In this document: in pieces, positions 19,694-64,000 of the stretch
Layout: each line of letters starts with the position of its first letter
Numbering within the stretch: the first letter of the stretch is position 1
Assembly: GCA_023053545.1 (NCBI GenBank)
Contig: JAKZAN010000046.1
Location: forward strand, 310,001-374,000
DNA from: Lepidurus packardi
Taxonomy: Eukaryota > Arthropoda > Branchiopoda > Notostraca > Triopsidae
Direction: 5' to 3'
DNA: 64,000 nt
The notes under the pieces: model-generated
What the model saw: only the letters and a program-made list of their open reading frames with translations
What the model was told of the DNA's origin: nothing
Databases searched by the model: none
Translations under genes and position numbers: made by a program

Positions 19694-19701
19694 CTCTGAT
19701 C
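19694..19701. repeat. Target-site duplication, left (CTCTGATC)
   Basis: Eight bases directly outside the left inverted repeat recur directly outside the right one at 23920-23927. Removing the element plus one copy restores an in-phase satellite (GGTCTCTGATC followed by GGGTCTCTAATCC). The target is itself a 12-bp repeat and the element starts with GGGT as the monomer does, so a 9-bp duplication (CTCTGATCG) with slightly asymmetric ends cannot be excluded. Confidence 0.8.
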
Positions 19702-19845
19702 GGGTAGGAGACGATTCACCACAGCCAAAACCTGTTTTTACTAATCCTGTCAACTCACCACAACTGCCCTCTAGTGACAATTCACCACACGACAATTCAC
19801 CACAGTATGATAATTTAATACTGACATAGTGGAAACCCGCCTTAA
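19702..19845 (+). repeat. Left terminal inverted repeat, 144 bp
   Basis: Starts GGGTAGGAGACGATTCACCA and ends at CTTAA. It is the exact reverse complement of 23776-23919 over all 144 bases and diverges immediately inward. It contains four copies of an (A/G)A(T/C)TCACCAC-type motif and a CTCF-like motif. Confidence 0.95.
19764..19777 (-). promoter_or_regulatory. CTCF-like motif in the left inverted repeat
   Basis: Read on the minus strand this is TCACTAGAGGGCAG, which fits the animal CTCF core CCASYAGRKGGCRS at 13 of 14 positions. Because it lies in the inverted repeat it recurs at 23844-23857 on the plus strand, giving a divergent pair. Binding is not shown; chance or a shared transposon-end motif is possible. 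Confidence 0.35.
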
Positions 19846-20445
19846 GGTAGGCAAGGTTACTGGAACCAAGGTTCTATCATCGGGCAGGGCTAGCATAGGG
19901 AATACTTTGCCTCTTTCCTGAAAGCGCGCGGATTTTGAGACACGGGAAGCGACTACGTTCTGTTGCTATATTCTTAATATATGAAATGTTTATATAATTA
20001 ATTTTTAGGAGTTCGACATCGCCCTGTATATTTAGTTCTTTTTTTTTCGTAGAACGATCGAGACAACAGCTGTTGGAATGGTAGACCATGGAGTATTTGT
20101 TTCTTCTTCAGTTACTTGATGCCACAGAATAGCTCCTTATTCTTCAAATACTTATGGCGAACTTCAGTGGTGCATGTTTTGTTCTTGCTATAAAAAAAAG
20201 CTTTTGTTTTTCCACTAAAATGTATATAGAGGAGGGTAGGAGATGGAGGAGAGTAGGAATAGGAACAAGAGTAGCGTTACGCAAAAAGGGAATTCCAAGG
20301 GGATTCCTTTCAAACAAGGTAGCCTCAGGTAAGCTTTCTCAGGTTTTCCACTAAGTGAAGGGAACTTATATCTATGAAATTTTACCTGTACTCCCGTATT
20401 TATATTCACAACTCCAGAAGTGCTAGATATTACTTACCTCGAAGC
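19846..20445 (+). promoter_or_regulatory. Transposon 5' region between inverted repeat and transposase start
   Basis: About 600 bp that I do not read as coding. It holds a TATA-like TATATAG at 20223-20229 and a strong splice donor (CAG then GTAAGC) at 20329. A usable acceptor CAG ends at 20417, so a 5' untranslated intron 20329-20417 is possible. That intron would remove an in-frame upstream ATG at 20374 and leave the ATG at 20446 first. Promoter and intron assignments are inference. Confidence 0.35.
19878..19901 (+). repeat. 24-bp subterminal direct repeat, left copy
   Basis: This short segment (core CATCGGGCRGGGCTAGC) recurs in the same orientation at 23740-23763, just inside the right inverted repeat. 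The copies agree at 21 of 24 positions, and all three differences are A/G. Being direct rather than inverted, it is not an extension of the terminal repeats. Confidence 0.7.
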
Positions 20446-20686
20446 ATGGATCTGTGCGTTGTATGTGGCAAACGCGTAACACACCGACAGCAAGCACTTG
20501 GGCCGTGCGATGATTGCGGTCTTTGGCAGCACCGTATTTGCAATACCGGTAGACATTCCCTTCTTTCTTCCCAAATTATATTTTATTTCACTAACTAACT
20601 TAGGAATCACGCCGCGGCAGTACCGACAGCTTCAGGAAGCTGATGACTTTGCATGGTCCTGCAACGTTTGTCGTGAAAGACTGTTG
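20446..20686 (+). other. PHD finger coding region split by a 55-bp intron
   Basis: Exons 1 and 2 encode residues 1-62. The finger spacing is C-x2-C, 13 residues, C-x2-C, 4 residues, H-x2-C, 21 residues, C-x2-C, all within the PHD range. The intron (20549-20603) has a CTAAC branch-like motif at 20591 and joins the two halves in phase within codon 35. PHD fingers commonly read histone H3 tails; whether this one does is not known. Confidence 0.85.
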
Positions 20687-23059
20687 GTAATTACCCACCA
20701 GTTGCATTTTAATAATATACCTTTAATACGTCGTATTTGTTTAGTGTTCTTCGGCATCCGCAGAAACAAACCATTCGGTGAACTTGTCTTTCGACATGCC
20801 AATAGCGCATAGCACTGCCATTAATGTAAACCTATTCAAGACTGCAATATCAGTATATTCTATTTCTCATAATTGTCTTCCATAGGAACTGGATAATTCC
20901 TTACCTCCTCTTGGGACTACCTCGCCATCCATGGCAACTGCCCTCCAGCGCGGCGACACGGCTAACACCCAGGTAAATTTTCAGCTTGATTGTGAAAAAT
21001 TAAATAAAAGAAAATGTTTCTTCTCCTTAGAATCGTAGCAAAGAAGCCATTACAGCTCGCCCATCTTCGATGACTGCTGCTTTAAATATAACCTACGTTG
21101 TAGACCGGATTTCCGACGAAGTATTTATTTATCCCGAATTTATATATAACTAAACAATTACTTATTTTCAATTCAGCAGGTTAATGGTAGAGACAGGCTG
21201 GCTGGGACACCTCCTTTTCTTTCCAGTGGATCTTCAAACTATGATCACGAGGACGGCGATACTGAGGCTAGTAACGACACCATCACCGAAGATATTGAAG
21301 ATATAATCAGCCAGGTATACACTATACATAAAGTTAAGCTCTAAATTAAATGTTATTCGTTTTTTAGATTGACACTATTAATATCACCAATCCGGAAATC
21401 CCTTTTACAGTTCCGCAACGGATCGAGGAAGATTCACTGATTACCGAACCTGTTCGCACTGATGCTGTCCATAACGAAATTACATACACAGTAATTGAAC
21501 GCGGCACAGAACGAGGAAAACCAGCACTGGCAGATTCTTGCGGGTGGAAATACGTCCGACACCGGGTGCAGAAGAACGGTACAGTGGACTGGATCTGTTC
21601 CGTACATAGGATGGTTCTTAAGTGCCCTGGCTTCGTGAAGCAAACGGGATCGAGCTTCGTTTTGGTGCGCAAGCACATTTGCAACAGTCAAGCTGATGGG
21701 AGAGACAAGGCTGTAGAAATGAAGCGAGACATGAAGGATGCTGCCATGAAAGGTATTTGGATTACGTCGATTTTGCAAAAAAGTTTTAATAATAAAGGAA
21801 AATTCAAACAGACCCATTCCGCTCTGCACAAAACATCGTAGAAGATGTGTTGATTGCCCATACAGGAGGGAACGCTGTGCCCGAGGCCTTGCCAGCTTTT
21901 CCTGCTCTCGCCCGCTTGACCAACAGGGCACGAGAAAAGCAGCGACCAAGACACCCGATGTCCTTGGACTTCGAGCTCAACACGGCTCATGTCCCACCAG
22001 GATTTCTACAGTGGGATTCATTTAACGCGGACAACGGAGTACAAACGCGTAGACATTTAATTTTTGCAACTGACAGCATGCTTACCCTTTTGGCGAATGC
22101 TGTCCAGTGGTTTTGCGACGCTACTTTTTACGTCGTAAGGCCTCCATTTACTCAACTATTTTCCATCCACGCATTCATAAAGCACGGAGGAAATATCAAA
22201 CAGGTATTTGGCTGACTATTTAATCTAGGAAAAAAAATACTAATTAGTATTTCAGGTGCCAATGGTCTTCAGTCTGATGTCTGGCAAAACGGTGCAGGAT
22301 TACAAAGATGTCTTACTAGCCATAGTCCGCCGCTGTCCGCACTTGCCACGTGTTTCAAACATATTAATGGATTTCGAAGCAGCCATTTGGCAAGCAGCGA
22401 AGTTCGTTATGCCACACGTGACTCTGCGCGGCTGCTCGTTCCACTGGAGCCAAGCGGTATATCGAAAGATCCAGGAAGTAGGACTCCAACGACAGTACAG
22501 GAACGAAGAAACGATCCGCAGCTTTTGCCGGTAATGTTGTTATGTCGAAATCTTCACTATTTACATACTTATACTCCTATCATTTAGGATGATACTAGCC
22601 CTCCAGTTCTTGCCGGCAGAGCACATCCCTCCCGCCCTGGATAGTCTAACGAGACAAAATGAGAATTCGCTTGTTGGTCAAGTTTGTCAGTATGTAAAGC
22701 GTACCTGGGTCGATTCCACGATCTGGCCACCGCAGTCCTGGTCGGCGTTCGGCCGTGCCATCAGGACAAACAACGACCTCGAATCTTGGCACGCTAGGCT
22801 TAATCGGAAAGCACAAAAGAAGGGTCTAAACCTTTACATGCTCCTCGAGCTACTGAAAAGGGAGGCAGAGATCGTCAAAATTAGCGTGCAGCTAATTACA
22901 GAAGACCGCCTATCAAGGGTTCAGAAGAAGCACCAGCAGGAGGTAGATGCGAAGTTGGAGCAGCTGTTTGTAAAGTACAGTGACGGACAGTTGGGTGCTG
23001 CCGAATTGTTGAAGCACTGTTCTTACGTATACGACCCTATCGGAAATGAAGATAAATAA
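20446..23059 (+). CDS. PHD-FLYWCH-MULE transposase, 9 exons, 674 aa
   Basis: Transposase of the host element, expected to bind its ends and cut and join DNA in the nucleus. Exons inferred from phase and GT-AG sites are 20446-20548, 20604-20686, 20886-20972, 21031-21120, 21177-21314, 21368-21752, 21812-22203, 22256-22530 and 22588-23059 (TAA), 2,025 nt in all. Residues 4-57 form a C4HC3 PHD finger: C4, C7, C21, C24, H29, C32, C54, C57, with W52 two residues before the last Cys pair. Residues about 92-205 are acidic and low in complexity. Residues about 206-272 form a FLYWCH-type finger (W242, C244, C253, H270, C272; the last ligand is Cys instead of the usual His). The MULE core follows, with candidate catalytic D398 (WFCDATF), D465 (MDFEAA) and E583 (NNDLESWH), plus GCSFHW at 485-490. 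Start chosen: ATG with A at -3 and G at +4, directly before the PHD finger. Exact exon 5 start could be 21177 or 21180. Confidence 0.9.
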
Positions 23060-23138
23060 TTTTACATTTATTTTAGATTTATTTGTTTTACATTTATTTT
23101 AGATTTATTTTTTTTAGATTTATTTTAGATTTATTTTA
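23060..23138 (+). repeat. T-rich tandem repeat after the transposase stop
   Basis: Degenerate copies of TTTATTTTAGAT follow the stop codon, with a 26-bp unit beginning TTTTACATTTATTTTAGAT present twice. It is probably in the 3' untranslated region. No function is evident. Confidence 0.7.
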
Positions 23139-23406
23139 TGACAATGTGGTAAACTACTGTTTGCATGCCAACTATTGTATTATTTTCTGACTGTTTTGAT
23201 TCTATACCGTGATTGTGCCTAATTTTTATCTCTCGTTTTGACGAATCTGCGAATTTTGACTATACGCTAGAGTACTAGTGAATATACGTATGTTTGTGTA
23301 CAATGTTTATAAATATATATTGATGGTTTATAGAAACTTATCCTAAACTGTCCTTGCCCAAGTGAAGATGAAAACTTTAACCACTTAATCATAATTACTA
23401 ATAAAT
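23139..23406 (+). other. Probable 3' untranslated region and poly(A) signal
   Basis: AT-rich, no convincing open frame. An AATAAA hexamer lies at 23400-23405, about 340 bp after the stop codon. It is the best poly(A) candidate seen, but in AT-rich sequence such hexamers occur by chance. Confidence 0.35.
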
Positions 23407-23739
23407 TTGAATACAAACTACAAATCGTTTGAATTTGAACAAAACTACAAGTACAACTTTTAAAACTCGTTTTCAGGATTGCTCACGTTTAATGATTAAT
23501 ATATTTGAATACAAACTACAACTCGTTTTCACGACGTGTTCACGTTTTGTTTGTGTACAAACTACAACTCGTTTTGTGTTACAAACTACTACAACTCGTA
23601 CAACTACGTCTACAATTTGACTACAAACTACAACTCGTTTAAATTTGAATACAAACAACAACTCGTTTTCACGATGTGTTCACGTTTTGTTTATGTACAG
23701 GGAGTCAAGAACGACATCTCTCCCGAAATAATAACAAAG
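23407..23739 (+). repeat. Subterminal degenerate repeats (TACAAACTACAACTCGTTT)
   Basis: Several imperfect copies of TACAAACTACAACTCGTTT occur here. A longer 53-bp unit is present at 23507-23559 and again at 23647-23699, with three mismatches and a spacing of 140 bp. Subterminal repeats in MULE or Phantom elements may be transposase-binding sites; that is inference, and no equivalent is seen at the left end. Confidence 0.7.
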
Positions 23740-23763
23740 CATCGGGCGGGGCTAGCGTGGGGA
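23740..23763 (+). repeat. 24-bp subterminal direct repeat, right copy
   Basis: Matches 19878-19901 in the same orientation at 21 of 24 positions. It lies 12 bp inside the right inverted repeat, whereas the left copy lies 32 bp inside. Confidence 0.7.
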
Positions 23764-23775
23764 GTGACGAAGGCT

Positions 23776-23919
23776 TTAAGGCGGGTTTCCACTATGTCAG
23801 TATTAAATTATCATACTGTGGTGAATTGTCGTGTGGTGAATTGTCACTAGAGGGCAGTTGTGGTGAGTTGACAGGATTAGTAAAAACAGGTTTTGGCTGT
23901 GGTGAATCGTCTCCTACCC
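23776..23919 (-). repeat. Right terminal inverted repeat, 144 bp
   Basis: Exact reverse complement of 19702-19845, ending CTCCTACCC. The following base starts the 8-bp target duplication. Confidence 0.95.
23844..23857 (+). promoter_or_regulatory. CTCF-like motif in the right inverted repeat
   Basis: TCACTAGAGGGCAG on the plus strand, the mirror of the site at 19764-19777. Only the first base departs from the CTCF core consensus. Confidence 0.35.
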
Positions 23920-23927
23920 CTCTGATC
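23920..23927. repeat. Target-site duplication, right (CTCTGATC)
   Basis: Matches 19694-19701; the satellite then resumes with GGGTCTCTAATCC in phase with the left side. Confidence 0.8.
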
Positions 23928-39193: not shown

Positions 39194-39541
39194 GTGATCG
39201 GGTCTCTAATCGGGTCTATGATCGGGTCTCTGATCGGGTCTCTGATCGGGTCTCTGATCGACTCTCTGATCGGGTCTCTGATCGGTTCTCTAATCGGGTC
39301 TCTGATCGACTCTCTGATCGGGTCTCTGATCGGGTCTCTAATCGGGTCTCTAATCGGGTCTCTGATCGGGTCTCTGATCGGGTCTCTAATCGGGTCTCTA
39401 ATCGGGTCTCTAATCGGGTCTCTGATCGGGTTTCTGATCGGGGACTGAATGAATTCCTTACGGACTGAATGAATTCCTTACGGACTGAATTAATTTCATA
39501 CGGACTGAATTAATTCCTTACTGACTGAATTAATTCCTTAC
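39194..39541. repeat. Duplicated 12-bp/20-bp satellite junction, copy 1
   Basis: The junction and its flanks recur at 58482-58829 with a constant offset of 19,288 bp. On the 12-bp side about 250 bp match with three base differences; about 99 bp of the 20-bp side look identical before the copies diverge (ACGG here, ACGT there). At the junction four G residues are shared (39440-39443). Confidence 0.85.
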
Positions 39542-42500
39542 GGACTGAATTAATTCCTTACGGGCTGAATTAATTCCTTACTGACTGAATTAATTCCTTA
39601 CGGACTGAATTAATTCCTTACGGACTGAATTAATTCCTTACGGACTGAAATATTTCCTTACGGACTGAATTAATTCTTTAGGATTGATTGAATTCCTTTT
39701 TTACTGAATTAATTCCTTACGGACTGAAATAATTCCTTACGGACTGAATTAATTTCTTACGGACTGAATTAATTCCTTACGGACCTAATTAATTCCCTAC
39801 GGACGGAATTAATTCTTTACGGACTTAATTAATTCCTTACGAACTTAATTAATTCCTTACGTACTTAATTAATTCCTTACGGACTGAATTAATTCCTTAC
39901 GGACTGAATTAATTCATTACGGACTGAATTTATTCCTTACGGACTGAATTATTTCCTTACGGACTGAATTAATTCTTTAGGATTGATTGAATTCCTTTCT
40001 TACTGAAAAAATTCCTTACGGACTGAATTAATTTCTTAATTAATTCCTTACGGACTGAATTAATTTCATACGTACTGAATTAATTAATTACGGACTATTA
40101 ATCCATTACGGACTGAAATAAATCCTTACGGACTTAATTAATTCCTTACGGACTGAATTAATTCCTTACGGACTGAATTAATTCCTTACGGACTGAATTA
40201 GTTCCTTACGGACTGAATTAATTCTTTAGGATTGATTGAATTCCTTTCTTACTGAATTAATTCCTTACGGACTGAATGAATTCCTTACGGACTGAATTAA
40301 TTTCATACGGACTGAATTAATACCTTACGGACTGAATTAATTTCATCCGGACTGAATTAATTCATTAAGCACTTAATTAATCCATTACGGACTGAATTAT
40401 TTCCTTACGTATTGAAGTTATTCCTTACGGACTGAATTAATTCCTTACGGACTGAATTAATACCTGACGGACTGAATTAAATCCTTACGGACTGAATTAA
40501 TTCCTTACGGACTTAATTAATTCCTTACGGACTGAATTAATTTCATCCGGACCTAATTAATTCCATACGGACGGAATTAATTCCTTTCGGACTGAATTAA
40601 TTCCTTACGGACTGAATTAATCCATTATGGACTTAATTAATTCCGTAAGGAATGAATGAATTAGTTACGGACTGAAATAATTCCTTACGGACTAAATTAA
40701 TTCCTTACGAACTGAATTAATTCCTTACGGACTGAATTAATTCCTTACGGACTGAATTAATTCCTTACGGACTGAATTATTTCCTTACGGACTGAATTAA
40801 TTCTTTAGGATTGATTGAATTCCTTTCTAACTGAAAAAATTCCTTACGGACTGAATTAATTCATTACGGACTTAATTAATCCATTACAGACTTAATTAAT
40901 TCCTTACGGACTGAATTAATTCCTTACGGACTGTATTAATTCCTTACGGACTGAATTAGTACCTTACGGACTGAATTAATAGTTTAGGATTGATTGAATT
41001 CCTTTCTTACTGAATTAATTCCTTACGGACTGAATTAATTTCATACGGACTGAATTAATACCTTACGGACTGAATTAATTCCTTACGGACTGAATTAATT
41101 CCTTAATTCCTTAATTAATTCCTTACGGACTGAATTAATTTCATCCGGACTGAATTAATTCATTACGCACTTAATTAATCCATTACGGACTGAATTATTT
41201 CCTTACGTACTGAAGTTATTCCTTACGGACTGAATTTATTCCTTACGGACTGAATTAATTCCTTACGGACTGAATTAATTCCTTACGGACTGAATTAATT
41301 CCTTAATTAATTCCTTACGGACTGAATTAATTTCATCCGGACTGAATTATTTCCTTACGGGCTGCATTAATTCCTTACGTACCTAATTAATTCCTTACGG
41401 TCTGAATTAATTCCGTACGGATTTAATTAATTCCTTACGGACTGAATTAATTCCTTACGGACTGAATTAATCCATTATGGACTTAATTAATTCCGTAAGG
41501 AATGAATGAATTAATTACGGACTGAAATAATTCCTTACGGACTAAATTAATTCCTTACGAACTGAATTAACTCCTTACGGACTGAATTAATTCCTTACGG
41601 ACTGAATTAATTCCTTACGGACTGAATTATTTCCTTACGGACTGAATTAATTCTTTAGGATTGATTGAATTCCTTTCTTACTGAAAAAATTCCTTACGGA
41701 CTGAATTAATTCCTTAATTAATTCCTTACGGACTGAATTAATTTCATACGGACTGAATTAATTCATTACGGACTTAATTAATCCATTACGGACTGAATTA
41801 ATTCCTTACGGACTGAATTAATTCCTTACGGACTGAATAAGTTCCTTACGGACTGAATTAATTCTTTAGGATTGATTGAATTCCTTTCTTACTGAATTAA
41901 TTCCTTACGGACTGAATGAATTCCTTACGGAATGAATTAATTTCATACGGACTGAATTAATACCTTACGGACTGAATTAAATCCTTACGGACTGAAATAA
42001 TTTCTTACGGACTGAATTAGTACCTTACGGACTGAATTAAATCTTTACAGACTGAATTAATTTCATACGGACTGAATTAATTCATTACGGACTTAATTAA
42101 TCCATTACGGACTGAATTAATTCATTACGCACTTAATTCTTCCATTACGGACTGAATTAATTCCTTAAGGACTGTATTAATTCCTTACGGATTGAATTAA
42201 TACCTTTCGGACTGAATTAAATCCTTACGGACTGAATTAATTCCTTACGGACTTAATTAATTCCTGAAGGACTTAATTAATTCCTTATGGACTGAATTAA
42301 TTCATTACGGACTGAATTAATTCATTACGGACTGAATTAATACCTTACGGACTGAATTAAATCCTTACGGACTGAGTTAATTCCTTACGGACTTAATTAA
42401 TTCCTTACGGACTGAATTAATTCCTTACGGACTGAATTAATTCCTTACGGACTGAATTAATTCCTTACTGATTGAATTAATTCATACGGACTAAATTAAT

Positions 42501-44860
42501 TCCTTACGGACTGAATTAATTCTTTATGATTGATTGAATTCCTTACTTACTGAATTAATTAGTTACGGACTGAATTAATTCCTTACGGACTGAATTAATT
42601 CCTTACGGACTGAATTAACTACTTAGGGACTGAATTAATTCCTTACGGACTGAATTAATTCTTTAGGGACTGAATTGATTCCTTACGGACTGAATTAATT
42701 CATTACGTACTTAATTAAATCCTTACTGACTTAATTAACTACTTACGGACTGAATTAATTTCTTACGGACTGAATTAATTCCTTACTGACTTTATAAATT
42801 CCTTACGGATTATATCAATACCTTACGGACTTAATTAATTCTTTACGGAATGATTTACTTCCTTACGGACTGAATTAATTACTTACGGACTGAATTAGTT
42901 CCTTACGGACTAAATTATTTACATACGGCCTGAATTAATTTCTTACGGACTGAATTAATTCATTACGGACTTCATTAATCCATTACGGACTTAATTAATT
43001 CATTACGGACTGAATTAATTCATTACGGACTGAATTAATTCATTACGGACTTCATTAATTCCTTACGGACTGAATTAATTCCTTACGGCCTGATTTAATT
43101 CCTTACAGACTGAATTAATTCCTTACGGCCTGATTTAATTCCTTACAGACTGGATTAATTCCTTATGGACTGAATTAATTCCTTACGAACTTAATTAATT
43201 CCTTACGGACTTAATTAATTCCTTACGGACTGAATTGTTTCCTTACGTACTGAATTTAATTCCATAAGGCCTGAATTAATTTCTTATGGACTGAATTAAT
43301 TCATTACGGACTTCATTAATATATTACGGACTTAATTAATTCATTACGGACTGAATTAATTCATTACGGACTGAATTAATTCATTACGGACTTAATTACT
43401 TCCTTACGGACTGAATTAATTCCTTTCGGCCTGATTTAATTCCTTACAGACTGAATTAATTCCTTACGGCCTGATTTAATTCCTTACAGACTGGATTAAT
43501 TCCTCATGGACTGAATTAATTCCTTACGAACTTAATTAATTCCTTACGGACTTAATTAATTCCTTACGGACTGAATTAATTGTACTGATTGTACTGAATG
43601 TATTTCTTACGGACTGAATTAATTCCTTACGGACTGAATTAATTCATTACGGACTTAAATAATTCATTACGGACTGAAATAATTCATTACGGACTGAATT
43701 AATTCCTTACGGACTGAATAAATTCCTTACGGACTGAATTAATTCTTTATGATTGATTGAATTCCTTATTTACTGAATTAATTAGTTACGAACTGAATTA
43801 ATTCATTACGGACTGAATTAATACCTTACGGACTGAATTAAATCCTTACGGACTGAATTAATTCCTTACGGACTGAATTAATACCTTACGGACTGAATTA
43901 AATCCTTACAGACTGAATTAATTCCTTACGGACTGAATTAATTCCTTAATTCCTTAATTAATTCCTTACGGACTGAATTAATTTCATCCGGACTATATTA
44001 ATTCATTACGCACTTAATTAATCCATTACGAACTGAATTAATTCCTTAAGGACTGTATTAATTCCTTACGGACTGAATTAATACCTTACGGACTGAATTA
44101 AATCCTTACAGACTGAATTAATTCCTTACGGACTGAACTTATTCCTTACGGACTGAATTAATTCCTTACGGACTGAATTAATTCCTTACGGACTGAATTA
44201 ATTCCTTAATTAATTCCTTACGGACTGAATTAATTTCATCCGGACTGAATTAATTCATTACGCACTTAATTAATCCATTACGGACTGAATTAATTCCTTA
44301 CGGACTGTATTAATTCCTTACGGACTGAATTAATACCTTACGGACTGAATTAAATCCTTACGGACTGAATTAATTCCTTACGGACTTAATTAATTCCTTA
44401 CGGACTTAATTAATTCCTTACGGACTGAATTAATTCATTACGGACTGAATTAATTCATTACGGACTGAAATAATACCTCACGGACTGAATTAAATCCTTA
44501 CGGACTGAATTAATTCCTTACGGACTTAATTAATTCCTTACGGACTGAATTAATTCCTTACGGACCTAATTAATTCCTTACGGACGGAATTAATTCTTTA
44601 CGGACTTAATTAATTCCTTACGGACTTAATTAATTCCTTACGTACTTAATTAATTCCTTACGGTCTGAATTAATTCCGTACGGATTTAATTATATCCGTA
44701 AGGAATGAATGAATTAATTACGGACGGAAATAATTCCTTACGGACTAAATTAATTCCTTACGGACTGAATTAATTCCTTACGGACTGAATTAATTCCTTA
44801 CGGACTGAATTAATTCCTTACGGACTGAATTATTTCCTTACGGACTGAATTAATTCTTTA

Positions 44861-47800
44861 GGATTGATTGAATTCCTTTCTTACTGAAAAAATTCCTAAC
44901 GGACTGAATTAATTCCTTAATTAATTCCTTACGGACTGAATTAATTTCATACGGACTGAATTAATTCATTACGGACTTAATTAATCCATTACGGACTGAA
45001 TTAATTCCTTACGGACTTAATTAATTCCTTACGGACTGTATAAATTCCTTACGGACTGAATTAATTCCTTACGGACTGAATTAGGTCCTTACGGACTGAA
45101 TTAATTCTTTAGGATTGATTGAATTCCTTTCTTACTGAATTAATTCCTTACGGACTGAATGAATTCCTTACGGACTGAATTAATTTCATACGGACTGAAT
45201 TAATACCTTACGGACTGTATTAATTCCTTACGGACTGAATTAATACCTTACGGACTGAATTAAATCCTTACGGACTGAATTAATTCCTTACGGACTGAAT
45301 TAATACCTTACGGACTGAATTAATACCTTACGGACTGAATTAATTCCTTACGGACTGAATTAATACCTTACGGACTGAATTAAATCCTTACGGACTGAAT
45401 TAATTCCTAACGGACTTAATTAATTCCTTACGGACTGAATTAATTCAATTAGGACTTAATTAATTCCTTACGGACTGAATTAATTCCTTACGGACCTAAT
45501 TAATTCCTTACGGACGGAATTAATTCTTTACGGACTTAATTAATTCCTTACGGACTTAATTAATTCCTTACGTACTTAACTAATTCCTTACGGTCTGAAT
45601 TAATTCCGTACGGATTTAATTAATTCCTTACGGACTGAATTAATTCATTATGGACTTAATCAATTCCGTAAGGAATGAATGAATTAATTACGGACTGAAA
45701 TAATTCCTTACGGACTAAATTAATTCCTTACGGACTGAATTAATTCCTTACGGACTGAATTAATTCCTTACGGACTGAATTAATTCCTTACGGACTGAAT
45801 TTTTTCCTTACGGACTGAATTAATTCTTTAGGATAGATTGAATTCCTTTCTTACTGAATTAATTCACTACGGACTGAAATAATTCCTTACGTACTTAATT
45901 AATTCCTTACGGTCTGAATTAATTCCGTACGGATTTAATTAATTCCGTAAGGAATGAATGAATTAATTACGGACGGAAATAATTCCTTACGGACTAAATT
46001 AATTCCTTACGGACTGAATTAAGTCCTTACGGACTGAATTAATTCCTTACGGACTGAATTAATTCCTTACGGACTGAATTATTTCCTTACGGACTGAATT
46101 AATTCTTTAGGATTGATTGAATTCCTTTCTTACTGAAAAAATTCCTAACGGACTGAATTAATTCCTTAATTAATTCCTTACGGACTGAATTAATTTCATA
46201 CGGACTGAATTAATTCATTACGGACTTAATTAATCCATTACGGACTGAATTAATTCCTTACGGACTTAATTAATTCCTTACGGACTGTATAAATTCCTTA
46301 CGGACTGAATTAATTCCTTACGGACTGAATTAGGTCCTTACGGACTGAATTAATTCTTTAGGATTGATTGAATTCCTTTCTTACTGAATTAATTCCTTAC
46401 GGACTGAATGAATTCCTTACGGACTGAATTAATTTCATACGGACTGAATTAATACCTTACGGACTGTATTAATTCCTTACGGACTGAATTAATACCTTAC
46501 GGACTGAATTAAATCCTTACGGACTGAATTAATTCCTTACGGACTGAATTAATACCTTACGGACTGAATTAATACCTTACGGACTGAATTAATTCCTTAC
46601 GGACTGAATTAATACCTTACGGACTGAATTAAATCCTTACGGACTGAATTAATTCCTAACGGACTTAATTAATTCCTTACGGACTGAATTAATTCAATTA
46701 GGACTTAATTAATTCCTTACGGACTGAATTAATTCCTTACGGACCTAATTAATTCCTTACGGACGGAATTAATTCTTTACGGACTTAATTAATTCCTTAC
46801 GGACTGAATTAATTCCTTACGGACTGAATTAATTCATTATGGACTTAATCAATTCCGTAAGGAATGAATGAATTAATTACGGACTGAAATAATTCCTTAC
46901 GGACTAAATTAATTCCTTACGGACTGAATTAATTCCTTACGGACTGAATTAATTCCTTACGGACTGAATTAATTCCTTACGGACTGAATTTTTCCTTACG
47001 GACTGAATTAATTCTTTAGGATAGATTGAATTCCTTTCTTACTGAATTAATTCACTACGGACTGAAATAATTCCTTACGGACTGAATTAATTCCTTACGG
47101 ACTAAATTAATTCTTTAATTAATTCCGTACGGACTGAATTAATTCATTTCGGACTTAATTAATCGATTACGGACTGAATTAATTCTTTACGTAATGAACT
47201 TATTCCTTACGGACTGAATTAATTCCTTACGGACTGAATTAATACCTTACGGATTTAATTAATTCCTTACGGTCTGAATTAATTCCGTACGGATTTAATT
47301 AATTCCTTACGGACTGAATTAATTCCTTACGGACTGAATTAATTCATTATGGACTTAATTAATTCCGTAAGGAATGAATGAATTAATTACGGACTGAAAT
47401 AATTCTTTACGGACTGAATTAATTCCTTGCGGACTGAATTAGTTCCTTACGGACTGAATTAATTCTTTAGGATTTATTGAATTCCTTTCTTACTGAATTA
47501 ACTACATACGGACTGAATGAATTCCTTACGGACTGAATTAATTCCTTACCCACTGAATTAATACCTTACGGATTTAATTAATTCCTTACGGTCTGAATTA
47601 ATTCCTTACAGACTGGATTAATTCCTCATGGACTGAATTAATTCCTTACGAACTTAATTAATTCCTTACGGACTTAATTAATTCCTTACGGACTGAATTA
47701 ATTGTACTGATTGTACTGAATGTATTTCTTACGGACTGAATTAATTCCTTACGGACTGAACTAATTCCTTACGGACTTAAATAATTCCTTACGGACTGAA

Positions 47801-50800
47801 TTAATTCATTACGGACTGAATTAATTCATTACGGACTGAATTAATACCTCACGGACTGAATTAAATCCTTACGGACTGAAATAATTCCTTACGGACTTAA
47901 TTAATTCCTTACGGACTGAATTAATTCATTACGGACTGAATTAATTCCTTACGGACTGAATTAATTCCTTACGTACTTAATTAATTCCTTACGGTCTGAA
48001 TTAATTCCGTACGGATTTAATTAATTCCTTACGGACTTAATTAATTCCTTACGGACTTAATTAAATCCATACGGACTTAAGTAATTCCTTACGGACTTAA
48101 ATAATTCTTTACGGAATTAATTAATTCATTACGGAATTTATTAATTCATTACGGATTCAATTAATTCATTACGGACTTTCTTAATTCATTACGGACTTAA
48201 TTAGTTCCTTACGGACCTAATTCATTTATTACGGACTTAATTAATTCATTACGAACTTAAATAATTCATTACGGACTTAATTAAATCCTTACGGACTTAA
48301 TTAATTCATTACGGACTTAATTAATTCCTTACGGAATTAATTCATTCATTACGGAATTAAATAATTCATTACGGATTGAATTAATTCATTACGGACTTTA
48401 TTAATTCTTTACGGACTTAATTAATTCCTTACGGACTTAATTAATTCTTTTCGGAATTAATTAATTCATTACGGAATTTATTAATTCATTTCGGATTCAA
48501 TTAATTCATTACGGACTTTCTTAATTCATTACGGACTTAATTAATTCCTTACGGACCTAATTCATACATTACGGACTTTATAAATTCCTTAGGGACTTAA
48601 TTAATTTCTTACGGACTTAGTTAAATCATAACGGACTAAATTAATTCCTTACGGACTTAATTAATTCCTTACGGACTTAATTAATTCCTTACGGAATTAA
48701 TTAATTCCTTACGGCCTTAACTAAATCCCTACGGACTTAATTAATTCCTTACGGACTTAATTAATTCTTTAGGAATTAATTAATTCATTACGGAATTTAT
48801 TAATTCATTACGGATTCAATTAATTCATTACGGACTTTCTTAATTCATTACGGACTTAATTAATTCCTTACAGACTTAATTAATTCAGTAAGGACTTAAT
48901 TAATTCCTTACGGACTTAATTAATTCCTTACGGACTTAATTATTTCATTACGGACTTAATTAATTCCTTACGGACTTAACTAATTCCTTGCGGCCTTAAT
49001 TAAATAAATACGTACTTAATTAATTCCTTACGGTCTGAATTAATTCCGTACGGATTTAATTAATTCCGTAAGGAATGAATGAATTAATTACGGACGGAAA
49101 TAATTCCTTACGGACTAAATTAATTCCTTACGGACTGAATTAATTCCTTACGGACTGAATTAATTCCTTACGGACTGAATTAATTCCTTACGGACTGAAT
49201 TATTTCCTTACGGACTGAATTAATTCTTTAGGATTGATTGAATTCCTTTCTTACTGAAAAAATTCCTAACGGACTGAATTAATTCCTTAATTAATTCCTT
49301 ACGGACTGAATTAATTTCATACGGACTGAATTAATTCATTACGGACTTAATTAATCCATTACGGACTGAATTAATTCCTTACGGACTTAATTAATTCCTT
49401 ACGGACTGTATAAATTCCTTACGGACTGAATTAATTCCTTACGGACTGAATTAGGTCCTTACGGACTGAATTAATTCTTTAGGATTGATTGAATTCCTTT
49501 CTTACTGAATTAATTCCTTACGGACTGAATGAATTCCTTACGGACTGAATTAATTTCATACGGACTGAATTAATACCTTACGGACTGTATTAATTCCTTA
49601 CGGACTGAATTAATACCTTACGGACTGAATTAAATCCTTACGGACTGAATTAATTCCTTACGGACTGAATTAATACCTTACGGACTGGATTAATACCTTA
49701 CGGACTGAATTAATTCCTTACGGACTGAATTAATACCTTACGGACTGAATTAAATCCTTACGGACTGAATTAATTCCTTACGGACTTAATTAATTCCTTA
49801 CGGACTTAATTAATTCCTTACGGACTGAATTAATTCATTACGGACTGAATTAATTCATTACGGACTGAATTAATACCTCAGGGACTGAATTAAATCCTTA
49901 CGGACTGAATTAATTCCTAACTTACTTAATTAATTCCTTACGGACTGAATTAATTCAATTAGGACTTAATTAATTCCTTACGGACTGAATTAATTCCTTA
50001 CGGACCTAATTAATTCCTTACGGACGGAATTAATTCTTTACGGACTTAATTAATTCCTTACGGACTTAATTAATTCCTTACGTACTTAACTAATTCCTTA
50101 CGGTCTGAATTAATTCCGTACGGATTTAATTAATTCCTTACGGACTGAATTGATTCCTTACGGACTGAATTAATTCATTATGGACTTAATCAATTCCGTA
50201 AGGAATGAATGAATTAATTACGGACTGAAATAATTCCTTACGGACTAAATTAATTCCTTACGGACTGAATTAATTCCTTACGGACTGAATTAATTCCTTA
50301 CGGACTGAATTAATTCCTTACGGACTGAATTTTTTCCTTACGGACTGAATTAATTCTTTAGGATAGATTGAATTCCTTTCTTACTGAATTAATTCACTAC
50401 GGACTGAAATAATTCCTTACGGACTGAATTAATTCCTTACGGACTAAATTAATTCTTTAATTAATTCCGTACGGACTGAATTAATTCATTTCGGACTTAA
50501 TTAATCGATTACGGACTGAATTAATTCCTTACGTAATGAACTTATTCCTTACGGACTGAATTAATTCCTTACGGACTGAATTAATACCTTACGGATTTAA
50601 TTAATTCCTTACGGTCTGAATTAATTCCGTACGGATTTAATTAATTCCTTACGGACTGAATTAATTCCTTACGGACTGAATTAATTCATTATGGACTTAA
50701 TTAATTCCGTAAGGAATGAATGAATTAATTACGGACTGAAATAATTCTTTACGGACTGAATTAATTCCTTACGGACTGAATTAGTTCCTTACGGACTGAA

Positions 50801-51190
50801 TTAATTCTTTAGGATTTATTGAATTCCTTTCTTACTGAATTAACTACATACGGACTGAATGAATTCCTTACGGACTGAATTAATTCCTTACCCACTGAAT
50901 TAATACCTTACGGATTTAATTAATTCCTTACGGTCTGAATTAATTCCTTACAGACTGGATTAATTCCTCATGGACTGAATTAATTCCTTACGAACTTAAT
51001 TAATTCATTACGGACTGAATTAATACCTCACGGACTGAATTAAATCCTTACGGACTGAAATAATTCCTTACGGACTTAATTAATTCCTTACGGACTGAAT
51101 TAATTCATTACGGACTGAATTAATTCCTTACGGACTGAATTAATTCCTTACGTACTTAATTAATTCCTTACGGTCTGAATTAATTCCGTA
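44861..51190. repeat. Higher-order copies within the 20-bp satellite
   Basis: A landmark pair (GGATTGATTG followed by a run of A and TTCCTAACGG) starts at 44861, 46110 and 49231, and again at 60915. Stretches after 46110 and after 49231 match over roughly 2 kb at an offset of about 3.1-3.3 kb, with a few length differences. These are approximate limits read by eye. Confidence 0.6.
48010..49008. repeat. T-type sub-array of the 20-bp satellite
   Basis: Here most monomers carry CTTAATTAA in place of CTGAATTAA and often CATTACGGA in place of CCTTACGGA. A distinctive run (ACGGAATTTATTAATTC, ACGGATTCAATTAATTC, ACGGACTTTCTTAATTC) marks it. It is paralogous to 51190-52421 but lacks the 12-bp island found there. 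Confidence 0.75.
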
Positions 51191-52316
51191 CGGATTTAAT
51201 TAATTCCTTACGGAATTAATTAATTCCTTACGGACTTAATTAAATCCATACGGACTTAATTAATTCCTTACGGACTTAAATAATTCTTTACGGAATTAAT
51301 TAATTCATTACGGAATTTATTAATTCATTACGGATTCAATTAATTCATTACGGACTTTCTTAATTCTTTACGGACTTAATTAGTTCCTTACGGACCTAAT
51401 TCATTTATTACGGACTTAATTAATTCATTACGAACTTAAATAATTCATTACGGACTTAATTAAATCCTTACGGACTTAATTAATTCATTACGGACTTAAT
51501 TAATTCCTTACGGAATTAATTCTCTAATCGGGTTTCTGATCGGGTCTCTGATCGGGTCTCTGATCGGGTCTCTGATCGGGTCTCTGATCGGGTCTCTATT
51601 CGGGTCTCTGATCGGGTCTCTGATCGGGTCTCTGATCGGGTCTCTGATCGGGTCTCTGATCGGGTCTCTAATCGAGGTCTCTGATCGGGTCTCTAATCCG
51701 GTCTCTAATCGGGTCTCTGATCGGGTCTATAATCTTATAATTCCTTACGGAATTAATTCATTCATTACGGAATTAAATAATTCATTACGGATTGAATTAA
51801 TTCATTACGGACTTTATTAATTCTTTACGGACTTAATTAATTCCTTACGGACTTAATTAATTCTTTTCGGAATTAATTAATTCATTAGGGAATTTATTAA
51901 TTCATTACGGATTCAATTAATTCATTACGGACTTTCTTAATTCATTACGGACTTAATTAATTCCTTACGGACCTAATTCATTCATTACGGACTTTATAAA
52001 TTCCTTAGGGACTTAATTAATTTCTTACGGACTTAGTTAAATCATAACGGACTAAATTAATTCCTTACGGACTTAATTAATTCCTTACGGACTTAATTAA
52101 TTCCTTACGGAATTAATTAATTCCTTACGGCCTTAACTAAATCCCTACGGACTTAATTAATTCCTTACGGACTTAATTAATTCTTTAGGAATTAATTAAT
52201 TCATTACGGAATTTATTAATTCATTACGGATTCAATTAATTCATTACGGACTTTCTTAATTCATTACGGACTTAATTAATTCCTTACAGACTTAATTAAT
52301 TCAGTAAGGACTTAAT
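49170..52316. repeat. Segmental duplication, copy 1 (second copy 60854-64000)
   Basis: This stretch matches 60854-64000 at a constant offset of 11,684 bp, checked at 49231, 51517, 51734 and 52316. Private variants are shared (GGACTGGATT, CCTCAGGGACTG, the island and both its edges). No net insertion or deletion is seen over 3.1 kb. The second copy runs off the window, so the true length is unknown. Confidence 0.88.
51521..51734. repeat. 12-bp satellite island inside the 20-bp array, copy 1
   Basis: 214 bp of 12-bp monomers interrupt the 20-bp array, then TTA leads back to it. The 20-bp sequence TAATTCCTTACGGAATTAAT occurs at both edges (51501-51520 and 51738-51757). The uninterrupted paralogue near 48320-48350 has it once. 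The monomer order (a TTTCTGATC monomer, four G-type, one CTATTC) matches 55460-55550 and 55875-55965. Confidence 0.9.
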
Positions 52317-53734
52317 TAATTCCTTACGGACTTAATTAATTCCTTACGGACTTAATTATTTCATTACGGACTTAATTAATTCCTTACGGACTTAACTAAT
52401 TCCTTGCGGCCTTAATTAAATCCATACGGACTTAATTAATTCCTTACGGACTTAAATAATTCCTTACGGAATTAATTAATTCCTTACGGCCTTAACGAAA
52501 TCCCTACGCACTTAATTATTTCCTTACGGACTTAATTAATTCCTTACGGACTTAATTATTTCATTACGGACTTCATTAATTCCTTACGTACTTAATTAAC
52601 TCACTACGGACTTCATTAATTCCCTACGGAATTTATTAATTCATTACGGACTTTATAAATTCCTTAGGGACTTTAGAAATTCCTTAGGTACTTAATTAAT
52701 TCCTTACGGACTTAGTTAATTCATTACGGACTTTATAAATCCTTAGGACTTTATAAGTCCTTAGGGACTTAATTAATTCCTTACGGACTTAATTAATTCA
52801 TTACGAACTTAATTAATTCATTACGGACTTAATTAATTCTTTACGGAATTAAATAATTCATTACGGAATTTATTAATTCATTACGGAATTAATTAAATCC
52901 TTACGGACTTAATTAATTCATTACGGAATTAAATAATTCATTACGGATTTAATTAATTAATTACGGACTTTATGAATTCATTTCGGAATTAATTAATTCC
53001 TTACGGACTTAATTAATTCACTACGGACTTTATTAATTCATTACGGACTTAATTATTTCCTTAGGGACTTCAATAATTCATTTCGGACTTCATTAATTCA
53101 TTACGGAATTTATAAATTCCTTAGGAACTTAATTAATTCCTTACGGACTTAATTAATTCCTTACGGCCTTAATTAAATCTTTACGGAATTAATTAATTCA
53201 TTACGGAATTTATTAATTCATTACGGATTCAATTAATTCATTACGGACTTTCTTAATTCATTACGGACTTAATTAATTCCTTACGGACCTAATTCATTCA
53301 TTACGGACTTTATAAATTCCTTAGGGACTTAATTAATTCCTTACGGATTTACTTAATTCATAACGGACTTAATTAATTCCCTACGGACTTAATTAATTCC
53401 TTACGGCCTTAATTAAATCCCTACGGACTTAATTAATTCAGTACGGACTTAATTAATTCCTTACGGATTTAACTAATTCCTTACGGACTTAATTAATTCA
53501 TTACGGAATTTATTAATTCATTACGGACTTAATTAAATCCTTACAGACTTAATTAATTCAGTAAGGACTTAATTGATTCCTTACGGACTTAATTAATTCC
53601 TTACGGAATTTATTAATTCATTACGGACTTAATTATTTCCTTAGGGACTTCATTAATTCATTTCGGACTTCATTAATTCATTACGGACTTCAATATTTCC
53701 TTAGGGACTTCATTAATTCATTACGGACTTTATA
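51735..53734. repeat. 20-bp satellite array, block 2 (T-type)
   Basis: Mostly T-type monomers (CTTAATTAATTC, often ATTACGGA). It ends in ACGGACTTTATA, abutting TCTAATCGGG of the 12-bp satellite at about 53735. Nothing else is seen in it. Confidence 0.95.
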
Positions 53735-56700: not shown

Positions 56701-58730
56701 TGTAATCGGGTCTCTGATCGGGTCTCTGATCGGGTCTCTAATCGGGTCTCTAATCGGGTCTCTGATCGGGTCTCTAATCGGGTCTCTAATCGGGTCTCTG
56801 ATCGGGTCTCTAATCGGGTCTCTAATCGGGTCTCTAATCGGGTCTCTGATCGAGTCTCTGATCGGGTCTCTGATCGGGTCTCTGATCGGGTCTCTAATCG
56901 GGTCTCTAATCGGGTCTCTGATCGAGTCTCTGATCGGGTCTCTGATCGGGTCTCTGATCGGGTCTCTAATCGGGTCTCTAATCGGGTCTCTGATCGGGTC
57001 TCTAATCGGGTCTCTAATCGGGTCTCTAATCGGGTCTCTGATCGAGTCTCTGATCGGGTCTGTAATCGGGTCTCTGATCGGGTCTCTGATCGGGTCTCTA
57101 ATCGGGTCTCTAATCGGGTCTCTGATCGGGTCTCTAATCGGGTCTCTAATCGGGTCTCTAATCGGGTCTCTGATCGAGTCTCTGATCGGGTCTGTAATCG
57201 GGTCTCTGATCGGGTCTCTGATCGGGTCTCTAATCGGGTCTCTAATCGGGTCTCTGATCGGGTCTCTAATCGGGTCTCTAATCGGGTCTCTGATCGGGTC
57301 TCTAATCGGGTCTCTAATCGGGTCTCTGATCGGGTCTCTAATCGGTTCTCTAATCGGGTCTCTGATCGGGTCTCTAATCGGGTCTCTAATCGGGTCTCTA
57401 ATCGACGTCCCTAATCGAGGTCTCTGATCGAGTCTCTAATCCGGTCTCTAATCGGGTCTCTAATCGGGTCTGTGATCGGGTCGCTAATCGGGTCTTTGAT
57501 CGGGTCTCTGATCGGGTCTCTGATCGGGTCTCTGATCGACTCTCTGATCGGGTCTCTGATCGGGTCTCTGATCGGGTCTCTGATCGACTCTCTGATCGAG
57601 TCTCTGATCGGGTCTCTAATCGGGTCTCTAATCGGGTCTCTAATCGGGTCTCCGATCGGGTGTCTGATCGGGTCTCTGATCGGGTCTCTGATCGACTCTC
57701 TGATCGGGTCTCTGATCGGGTCTCTAATCGGGTCTCTAATCGGGTCTCTGATCGGGTCTCTGATCGGGTCTCTAATCGGGTCTCTAATCGGGTCTCTAAT
57801 CGGGTCTCTGATCGGGTCTCTGATCGGGTCTTTAATCGGGTCTTTAATCGGGTCTCTGATCGGGTCTCTGATCGGGTCTCTAATCGGGTCTCTAATCGGG
57901 TCTCTGATCGGGTCTCTAATCGGGTCTCTAATCGGGTCTCTAATCGGGTCTCTGATCGAGTCTCTGATCGGGTCTCTAATCGGGTCTCTAATCGGGTCTC
58001 TGATCGGGTCTCTAATCGGGTCTCTAATCGGGTCTCTAATCGGGTCTCTGATCGAGTCTCTGATCGGGTCTCTGATCGGGTCTCTGATCGGGTCTCTAAT
58101 CGGGTCTCTAATCGGGTCTCTGATCGGGTCTCTAATCGGGTCTCTAATCGGGTCTCTAATCGGGTCTCTGATCGAGTCTCTGATCGGGTCTCTAATCGGG
58201 TCTCTGATCGGGTCTCTGATCGGGTCTCTAATCGGGTCTCTAATCGGGTCTCTGATCGGGTCTCTAATCGGGTCTCTAATCGGGTCTCTGATCGGGTCTC
58301 TAATCGGGTCTCTAATCGGGTCTCTGATCGGGTCTCTAATCGGTTCTCTAATCGGGTCTCTGATCGGGTCTCTAATCGGGTCTCTAATCGGGTCTCTAAT
58401 CGACGTCTCTAATCGAGGTCTCTGATCGGGTCTCTAATCCGGTCTCTAATCGGGTCTCTAATCGGGTCTCTAATCGGGTCTGTGATCGGGTCTCTAATCG
58501 GGTCTATGATCGGGTCTCTGATCGGGTCTCTGATCGGGTCTCTGATCGACTCTCTGATCGGGTCTCTGATCGGGTCTCTAATCGGGTCTCTGATCGACTC
58601 TCTGATCGGGTCTCTGATCGGGTCTCTAATCGGGTCTCTAGTCGGGTCTCTGATCGGGTCTCTGATCGGGTCTCTAATCGGGTCTCTAATCGGGTCTCTA
58701 ATCGGGTCTCTGATCGGGTCTCTGATCGGG
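53735..58730. repeat. 12-bp satellite array, block 3
   Basis: Same monomer as blocks 1 and 2. It carries four TTATCAG landmarks (54562, 54985, 55263, 55628) but no TTAACAG site and no 51-bp insert. A 423-bp tandem duplication is marked by the first two TTATCAG sites. GTCTGTAATC variants cluster near 56430-57195. It ends in the duplicated junction with the 20-bp satellite. Confidence 0.97.
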
Positions 58731-58829
58731 GACTGAATGAATTCCTTACGGACTGAATGAATTCCTTACGGACTGAATTAATTTCATACGGACTGAATTA
58801 ATTCCTTACTGACTGAATTAATTCCTTAC
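58482..58829. repeat. Duplicated 12-bp/20-bp satellite junction, copy 2
   Basis: Counterpart of 39194-39541. The last 12-bp monomer ends at 58730 and GACTGAATGAATTCC begins at 58731. Confidence 0.85.
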
Positions 58830-61800
58830 GTACTGAACTTATTCCTTACGGACTAAATTATATCCTTACGGACTGAATTAATTCCTTACGGACTGAATTA
58901 ATTCCTTACGGACTGAATTAATTCCTTACGGACTGAAATATTTCCTTACGGACTGAATTAATTCTTTAGGATTGATTGAATTCCTTTCTTACTGAATTAA
59001 TTCCTTACTGACTTAATTAAATCCTTACAGACTAAATTAATTCCTTATGGACTTAATTAATTCCGTAAGGAATGAATTAATTAATTACGGACTGAATTAA
59101 TTCCTTACGGACTGAATTAATTCTATAATTAATTCCTTACGGACTGAGTTAATTTCATACGGACTGAATTAATTCATTACGGACTTAATTAATCGATTAC
59201 GGACTGAATTAATTCCTTACGTACTGAACTTATTCCTTACGGACTGAATTATATCCTTACGGACTGAATTAATTCCTTACGGACTGAATTAATTCCTTAC
59301 GGACTGAATTAATACCTTACAGACTGAATTACATCCTTACGGACAGAATTAATTCCTTACGGACTGAATTAATTCCTTACGGACTGAATTTATTCCTTAC
59401 GGACTGAATTAGTTCCTTACGGACTGAATTAATTCCTTACGGACTGAATTAATACCTTACGGACTGAATTAAATCCTTACGGACTGAATTAATTCCTTAC
59501 GGACTGAATTAATTCATTACGGACTTAATTAAATCCTTACAGACTGAATTAATTCCTTAATTAATTCCTTACGGACTGAGTTAATTTCATACGGACTGAA
59601 TTAATTCATTACGGACTTAATTAATCGATTACGGACTGAATTAATTCCTTACGTACTGAACTTATTCCTTACGGACTGAATTATATCCTTACGGACTGAA
59701 TTAAGTCCTTACGGACTGAAATAATTCCTTACGGACTGAATTAATTCCTTACGGACTGAATTACATCCTTACGGACAGAATTAATTCCTTACGGACTGAA
59801 TTAATTCCTTACGGACTGAATTTATTCCTTACGGACTGAATTAGTTCCTTACGGACTGAATTAATTCCTTACGGACTGAATGAATTCCTTACGGACTGAA
59901 TGAATTCCTTACGGACTGAATTAATTTCATACGGACTGAATTAATTCCTTACTGACTGAATTAATTCCTTACGTACTGAACTTATTCCTTACGGACTGAA
60001 TTATATCCTTACGGACTGAATTAATTCCTTACGGACTGAATTAATTCCTTACGGACTGAATTAATTCCTTACGGACTGAAATATTTTCTTACGGACTGAA
60101 TTAATTCTTTAGGATTGATTGAATTCCTTTCTTACTGAATTAATTCCTTACTGACTTAATTAAATCCTTACAGACTAAATTAATTCCTTATGGACTTAAT
60201 TAATTCCGTAAGGAATGAATTAATTAATTACGGACTGAATTAATTCCTTACGGACTGAATTAATTCTATAATTAATTCCTTACGGACTGAGTTAATTTCA
60301 TACGGACTGAATTAATTCATTACGGACTTAATTAATCGATTACGGACTGAATTAATTCCTTACGTACTGAACTTATTCCTTACGGACTGAATTATATCCT
60401 TACGGACTGAATTAATTCCTTACGGACTGAATTAATTCCTTACGGACTGAATTAATACCTTACAGACTGAATTACATCCTTACGGACAGAATTAATTCCT
60501 TACGGACTGAATTAATTCCTTACGGACTGAATTTATTCCTTACGGACTGAATTAGTTCCTTACGGACTGAATTAATTCCTTACGGACTGAATTAATACCT
60601 TACGGACTGAATTAAATCCTTACGGACTGAATTAATTCCTTACGGACTGAATTAATTCATTACGGACTTAATTAAATCCTTACAGACTGAATTAATTCCT
60701 TAATTAATTCCTTACGGACTGAGTTAATTTCATACGGACTGAATTAATTCATTACGGACTTAATTAATCGATTACGGACTGAATTAATTCCTTACGTACT
60801 GAACTTATTCCTTACGGACTGAATTATATCCTTACGGACTGAATTAAGTCTTTACGGACTGAATTAATTCCTTACGGACTGAATTATTTCCTTACGGACT
60901 GAATTAATTCTTTAGGATTGATTGAATTCCTTTCTTACTGAAAAAATTCCTAACGGACTGAATTAATTCCTTAATTAATTCCTTACGGACTGAATTAATT
61001 TCATACGGACTGAATTAATTCATTACGGACTTAATTAATCCATTACGGACTGAATTAATTCCTTACGGACTTAATTAATTCCTTACGGACTGTATAAATT
61101 CCTTACGGACTGAATTAATTCCTTACGGACTGAATTAGGTCCTTACGGACTGAATTAATTCTTTAGGATTGATTGAATTCCTTTCTTACTGAATTAATTC
61201 CTTACGGACTGAATGAATTCCTTACGGACTGAATTAATTTCATACGGACTGAATTAATACCTTACGGACTGTATTAATTCCTTACGGACTGAATTAATAC
61301 CTTACGGACTGAATTAAATCCTTACGGACTGAATTAATTCCTTACGGACTGAATTAATACCTTACGGACTGGATTAATACCTTACGGACTGAATTAATTC
61401 CTTACGGACTGAATTAATACCTTACGGACTGAATTAAATCCTTACGGACTGAATTAATTCCTTACGGACTTAATTAATTCCTTACGGACTTAATTAATTC
61501 CTTACGGACTGAATTAATTCATTACGGACTGAATTAATTCATTACGGACTGAATTAATACCTCAGGGACTGAATTAAATCCTTACGGACTGAATTAATTC
61601 CTAACTTACTTAATTAATTCCTTACGGACTGAATTAATTCAATTAGGACTTAATTAATTCCTTACGGACTGAATTAATTCCTTACGGACCTAATTAATTC
61701 CTTACGGACGGAATTAATTCTTTACGGACTTAATTAATTCCTTACGGACTTAATTAATTCCTTACGTACTTAACTAATTCCTTACGGTCTGAATTAATTC

Positions 61801-63204: not shown

Positions 63205-63418
63205 TCTCTAATCGGGTTTCTGATCGGGTCTCTGATCGGGTCTCTGATCGGGTCTCTGATCGGGTCTCTGATCGGGTCTCTATTCGGGTCTCTGATCGGG
63301 TCTCTGATCGGGTCTCTGATCGGGTCTCTGATCGGGTCTCTGATCGGGTCTCTAATCGAGGTCTCTGATCGGGTCTCTAATCCGGTCTCTAATCGGGTCT
63401 CTGATCGGGTCTATAATC
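63205..63418. repeat. 12-bp satellite island, copy 2
   Basis: Second copy of the island at 51521-51734 with the same two edges, at offset 11,684. It belongs to the segmental duplication and is not an independent insertion. Confidence 0.9.
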
Positions 63419-64000
63419 TTATAATTCCTTACGGAATTAATTCATTCATTACGGAATTAAATAATTCATTACGGATTGAATTAATTCATTACGGACTTTA
63501 TTAATTCTTTACGGACTTAATTAATTCCTTACGGACTTAATTAATTCTTTTCGGAATTAATTAATTCATTAGGGAATTTATTAATTCATTACGGATTCAA
63601 TTAATTCATTACGGACTTTCTTAATTCATTACGGACTTAATTAATTCCTTACGGACCTAATTCATTCATTACGGACTTTATAAATTCCTTAGGGACTTAA
63701 TTAATTTCTTACGGACTTAGTTAAATCATAACGGACTAAATTAATTCCTTACGGACTTAATTAATTCCTTACGGACTTAATTAATTCCTTACGGAATTAA
63801 TTAATTCCTTACGGCCTTAACTAAATCCCTACGGACTTAATTAATTCCTTACGGACTTAATTAATTCTTTAGGAATTAATTAATTCATTACGGAATTTAT
63901 TAATTCATTACGGATTCAATTAATTCATTACGGACTTTCTTAATTCATTACGGACTTAATTAATTCCTTACAGACTTAATTAATTCAGTAAGGACTTAAT
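63419..64000. repeat. 20-bp satellite array, block 4 (T-type, continues past the window)
   Basis: T-type monomers matching 51735-52316 to the last base of the window. Confidence 0.95.

Follow-up and report, generated by a model that had tools for sequence, protein, structure and literature searches.

A PHD finger in a probable Rehavkus-type Mutator-like transposase of Lepidurus packardi

Two short exons at positions 20446-20686 of a DNA stretch from the branchiopod Lepidurus packardi encode a putative PHD finger, and exons of a Mutator-like (MULE) transposase lie downstream of them. The locus raises the question whether the finger belongs to the transposase and, if so, what it would contact. 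The stretch, hereafter the window, comprises 64,000 nucleotides (G000:C35:310001-374000) of a genome assembly of 108.6 Mb in 344 contigs, and positions given without a contig are those of the window. Our answer to the first part is that the PHD exons very probably encode the N-terminus of the transposase of a Rehavkus-type Mutator-like DNA transposon, which appears intact and autonomous and lies in a 12-bp satellite. The second part can be answered more tentatively, and several readings are weighed below.

The transposase gene and its finger segments

The gene model consists of ten exons on the forward strand (20446-23059) with GT-AG borders, which join into a single open frame of 694 aa with a stop codon at 23057-23059. 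Exon 1 (20446-20548) holds the start codon and the PHD ligands C4, C7, C21, C24, H29, and C32, and exon 2 (20604-20686) completes the finger with W52, C54, and C57; the two meet in phase 1 within a Gly codon and together encode 62 aa. Four linker exons follow, at 20745-20825 (exon 3), 20886-20972 (exon 4), 21031-21099 (exon 5), and 21177-21314 (exon 6). The linker between finger and core (20745-21314) is built entirely of symmetric phase-0 exons, the lengths of which are divisible by three. In a second family of elements in the same genome (family B, described below), the linker contains an exon-plus-intron unit of ∼133 bp in tandem (copy L037, 2589-2874, reverse strand). Exon 7 (21368-21752) encodes a C2HC finger-like segment with W262, C264, C273, H290, and C292. 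The MULE domain starts in exon 8 (21812-22203), which contains the first catalytic Asp (CDATF, D418). Exon 9 (22256-22530) carries D485, the second catalytic Asp (MDFE), together with the pair C506/H509 of the CH motif (GCSFHW), and exon 10 (22588-23059) provides the catalytic Glu (NNDLESW, E603), the C-terminus, and the stop. The catalytic roles of D418, D485, and E603 are assigned by motif and are presumed here; the order of these residues and of C506/H509 agrees with the description of MULEs, and the Pfam MULE profile (PF10551) matches the window protein with 32.7 bits (cut-off 27.6). The first-pass annotation had proposed a PHD finger joined in phase to FLYWCH and MULE exons. The in-phase joining of the PHD exons to the MULE domain stands, while the FLYWCH domain finds no profile match; exons 1-2 also join further exons as proposed, eight of them and not seven.

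Residues 4-57 contain all eight C4HC3 ligands, with W52 two residues ahead of the C54/C57 pair, and the PHD assignment previously made from this pattern is borne out by profile searches. The Pfam profile PF00628 scores 24.9 bits with the 62-aa query, just above its gathering cut-off of 24, and falls below the cut-off with longer queries (23.6 bits for 76 aa and 17.7 for the whole protein); by its score, the single-sequence PHD call is a threshold match. In searches of the PDB, the finger alone matches the Pygopus PHD (E 1.2e-4), and a three-finger profile built from the L. packardi genome matches Pygopus PHD chains at E 3.6e-8. The profile comprises two transposase-linked fingers, from family A (the family of the window element) and family B, and a third for which linkage to a transposase is unproven. 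This third member is a PHD exon pair on contig C3 (L025/L049) with a complete set of eight ligands, and no transposase was found within 4.5 kb downstream of it. An open reverse frame near this exon pair (L049, 1000-1536) appears to resemble the C-terminal part of hAT transposases that serves dimerisation. For the window finger, C1, RING, and other folds score below PHD.

The exon 7 segment is FLYWCH-like by position and by its spaced Cys/His pattern only. The pattern (W-x-C ... C ... H-x-C) is invariant across the three families compared, and the position resembles that in Muta1, for which the available description places the FLYWCH finger at residues 24-92 and the first Asp at D214; the window segment lies similarly far upstream of D418. 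FLYWCH gave no Pfam match at E values up to 10, whether in the window protein or in any of three family members. A genome-wide search with PF04500 scored four candidates and gave one weak match on another contig, with none at the window locus, and a PDB profile search with the exon 7 segment returned two matches, neither of them a FLYWCH chain. An AlphaFold2 model of the finger-like part by itself (99 residues) had a mean pLDDT of 57, a quality too low to be informative; a Foldseek search with this model, which gave no match at E <= 0.001, was counted neither way.

Ends, setting, and classification of the element

The transposon extends from 19702 to 23919 (4218 bp), is of the cut-and-paste type, and is inserted within a 12-bp satellite array, which constitutes the host DNA around it as far as the window was read. 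Cut-and-paste movement by the DDE core is attributed to the element because of its family membership, and the core would cut and rejoin the element ends. The terminal inverted repeats (TIRs) are 144 bp long and 100% complementary (5' TIR, 19702-19845, forward strand; 3' TIR, 23776-23919, reverse strand). They are flanked by an 8-bp target site duplication (TSD), ctctgatc, at 19694-19701, inside the 12-bp satellite, and at 23920-23927. Since the host DNA is itself a 12-bp repeat, the TSD was deduced from the satellite phase, which restarts past the element. Among ten elements with ends read, the TSD is 8 bp in eight, 9 bp in one (L037), and lacking in one that is rearranged (L030), where two of the eight, the window element and L029, lie in satellite with identical flanks and may represent a single event. 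Directly 3' of the stop codon are three copies of a 26-bp tandem repeat (23059-23138), and a minisatellite-like repeat with a period of ∼66 bp (2.8 copies, 63% matches) is located 5' of the 3' TIR (23502-23699). An open transposase gene, paired TIRs, and a TSD are all present in the window element, which on sequence grounds corresponds to the anatomy of an autonomous MULE. Elsewhere in the window, a 20-bp satellite (GGACTGAATTAATTCCTTAC) occupies most of 39442-53729 and 58730-63986, and a repeat in the final 500 bases of contig C1 (L051) resembles it by eye.

Rehavkus elements are characterized by a PHD zinc finger, long TIRs, and a minisatellite ahead of the 3' TIR (PMC6446971, Table 1, section 8). 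The same source lists a TIR length of 26-400 bp and a TSD of 9 bp for Rehavkus, and TSDs of 8-11 bp for MULEs at large. The window element agrees strongly with this description, in its PHD finger, its MULE-related DDE domain, its 144-bp TIR, which is in the range of 26-400 bp, and its minisatellite, albeit an imperfect one; the 8-bp TSD departs from the 9 bp listed. Rehavkus elements of Repbase, such as Rehavkus-1_TC of Tribolium, are likewise described as having a MULE-type transposase with a PHD finger in one gene, long TIRs, and a tandem repeat before the 3' TIR, and an apparent arthropod host is a further point in common. There are also differences. The listed TIR range is surpassed by most family B copies, and the Rehavkus descriptions consulted mention no second finger, whereas the window transposase has the C2HC segment. 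Because the TSD length does not match and Rehavkus was compared by description rather than by sequence, we use the label 'Rehavkus-type' and not that of a formal member. In PMC13359780, Rehavkus serves as an outgroup, and the word PHD is absent from its main text.

The first-pass annotation had not recognised the order of domains as a standard one for the family. That the order is non-standard does not hold, as the PHD finger is already listed as the zinc finger of Rehavkus (PMC6446971), and its publication there also rules out a new domain fusion; the window element is a new specimen of a known kind. Animal MULEs of the Phantom/Muta1 type are similar in having a MULE DDE core, the CH motif, TSDs of 8-9 bp, and a finger-like segment ∼125 aa before the first Asp. 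They differ in the finger itself: it is termed FLYWCH, or else is SWIM or absent, with PHD not listed for them, and the window segment does not score as FLYWCH. PHD fingers are also borne by CR1/L2 LINEs, but there they belong to a retrotransposon ORF1 rather than to a DDE transposase. A Pygopus entry (2vpb or 3zpv) is the top structure match in seven of nine PHD rows of Table 1 in PMC4120745, the authors of which were, in 2014, aware of no functional study of the CR1/L2 ORF1 PHD fingers.

Possible contacts of the PHD finger

In the mechanism that we favor, the C2HC segment, placed as the FLYWCH finger of Muta1, would bind the motifs repeated in the TIRs, and the PHD finger would serve as an accessory contact to the host. 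The residues of the Pygo PHD that form the histone H3 pocket are W366, V350, A356, Y379, and L382 (PMC2726290), and by our own reading of the alignment they correspond to W27, V11, A17, Y41, and L44 in the window finger. The Trp that divides the pocket is common to both, Val and Ala provide the pocket base in the window copy, and Tyr and Leu the T3/A1 side. A17 is replaced by Gly in family B and V11 by Met in the third family, so that only W27, Y41, and L44 are invariant among the three fingers compared. The cage for methylated K4 is retained in part: Trp27 is kept, whereas Y341 and D352, the walls of the K4-methyl pocket in Pygo, align with D2 and H13. The window finger, which is part of a different protein, thereby differs from its closest solved relative in having neither the lid Tyr nor the Asp of EVND.

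The residues give a mixed picture. In our view, the most likely partner of the finger is the N-terminus of histone H3, without a strict choice of H3K4me3, a proposal to which we give slightly less than an even chance. Such a contact would tether the transposase complex to chromatin. The PHD finger of RAG2, which reads H3K4me3, is likewise found within a transposase system, but on a separate subunit. A more far-reaching version, in which the transposase family has its own histone H3 reader for choosing landing sites, selected as long as the catalytic core, and in which the C2HC segment adds a second finger, so that DNA and chromatin would each be read by a finger of their own, seems to us unlikely. 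For the integration guided by chromatin state that the first-pass annotation had suggested, no test was found in the literature searched.

A different reading is that the PHD-fold finger is itself the DNA-binding module for the TIR motifs and has no histone role. The precedent is the cysteine-rich domain of piggyBac, which adopts a PHD-like cross-brace fold and recognises a motif that is repeated at both ends of the transposon (PMC8086355); that domain is C-terminal in its transposase. The distribution of motifs in the L. packardi elements also fits: TCACCACA occurs four times in the TIR of the window element and not at all between the TIRs on either strand, and five copies of AACGGGCCCA were counted in the family B TIR, where alone this motif was counted. 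Both would be candidate binding sites of the transposase. However, the protein has a second conserved Cys/His segment that can be placed as the Muta1 FLYWCH finger, and the closest solved relatives of the PHD finger are the histone-reading Pygopus PHDs, and we consider a DNA-binding role of the PHD finger improbable. Alternatively, the finger could be a structural or protein-contact module, used in multimer assembly or for a host partner, that engages neither histones nor DNA. The partial retention of the K4-methyl pocket would be consistent with such a module, as would the Pygo PHD, the rear face of which binds BCL9 (PMC2726290). The invariance of Trp27, Tyr41, and Leu44, the equivalents of histone-pocket residues, in the three fingers argues against it, weakly, since these residues may serve the fold, and a pure protein-contact role is also doubtful in our estimate.

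Copies in the genome and the age of the fusion

The same fusion was looked for in related elements, as had been suggested, and is present in family B. The family B finger is 49% identical to that of the window, and its intron splits the same Gly codon, likewise in phase 1. The family (ten copies, L033-L042) has the order finger, linker exons, C2HC segment, and one copy, L037, has a complete MULE core and is 46% identical to the window protein from exon 7 onward. Because family B shares the finger, the intron position, and the intron phase, we conclude from the comparison of the two families that the joining of the PHD finger to the MULE transposase is real and old. Between families A and B, dN is 0.43 for the finger (57 codons) and 0.47 for exon 9 (91 codons, dS 2.9). 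These values are comparable, which indicates that the finger has been held about as tightly as catalytic exon 9; the NG86 output of -1 for dS of the finger is read as saturation. That exons 1-2 instead form a small gene of their own, or a fragment captured from the host, and are not spliced to the transposase is highly improbable: family B has the same exons and the same phase-1 intron at the corresponding 5' position of its gene, the borders of every later exon are in phase, and dN is similar for finger and exon 9.

Individual copies are less well preserved. Family A is found in five places, and the finger is complete only in the window. Of 4218 positions, L029 and the window element differ at 3, and two of these differences change the ligand C24 to Phe in L029; in L030 a 3-bp deletion removes one residue between the first two Cys. 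No PHD exon could be aligned in L031 and L032, the latter of which gave one weak, unlinked PHD-profile match. Eleven B-type fingers (L033-L042 and L047; fragments L022 and L026 left out) include six with full ligands, four that have lost the N-terminal part, and one (L047) that has lost the first Cys. As judged from these copies, selection keeps the finger between families, and decay occurs there in individual copies.

The window element (19702-23919) and L029 (1669-5886) are ∼90 kb apart, both in satellite and with the same immediate flanks. Given these flanks and the 3 differences in 4218 positions, one of the two probably arose when the satellite expanded rather than through transposition; farther out, the satellite flanks are too repetitive for proof. 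Family B is distributed over contigs C1, C2, C3, C4, and C5 in copies of ∼4-5 kb, the main stretches of which are 98-99.9% identical, with some end stretches at 88-97%. A segment of ∼265 bp with the first catalytic Asp is missing from nine of the ten copies and kept only in L037, and it looks as if deletion derivatives, driven in trans, had spread recently. TIR alignments extend over 616-856 bp in seven of the ten copies and 139-428 bp in the other three, and L037 carries an A/T-rich repeat ahead of its 3' TIR, at a position matching that of the window minisatellite. L047 (C6:152000-160000) is a mosaic of a B-type finger and two core stretches that are 96-97% identical to the window element of family A.

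A further family, C, is found on contig C5 (L043-L046) and carries FLYWCH-like and MULE exons. Three of its loci (L043-L045, G000:C5:11142268-11175576) repeat in tandem every ∼3.7 kb, with a finger-like exon of ∼54% identity, and give the impression of a transposon that has expanded into a satellite. With the PHD profile, L044, L045, and L046 yielded nothing, and L043 yielded two matches, on the opposite strand before the first unit; since the coding matches of family C are partial, it is not counted as a PHD-less family. Searches of viral and bacterial/archaeal (GTDB) contigs, collections that exclude animals, gave no confirmed homologues. In the L. packardi assembly, contigs C52, C214, and C43 contain COX1-type genes without stops and may be bacterial symbionts or contamination, and elsewhere there are many broken, NUMT-like COX1 stretches with TGA codons. 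Read as Trp, these codons indicate an animal host, and the encoded protein appears to be of an arthropod, perhaps a crustacean.

The window element, intact-looking and with its exon borders and perfect ends, adds a probable specimen to Rehavkus, a group of which very few elements were known as of 2019 (PMC6446971, section 8). It shares a single genome of 108.6 Mb with a second family, the copies of which closely resemble one another. If the PHD finger does read histones, these elements would allow a direct test of whether chromatin guides the insertions of a DDE transposase.
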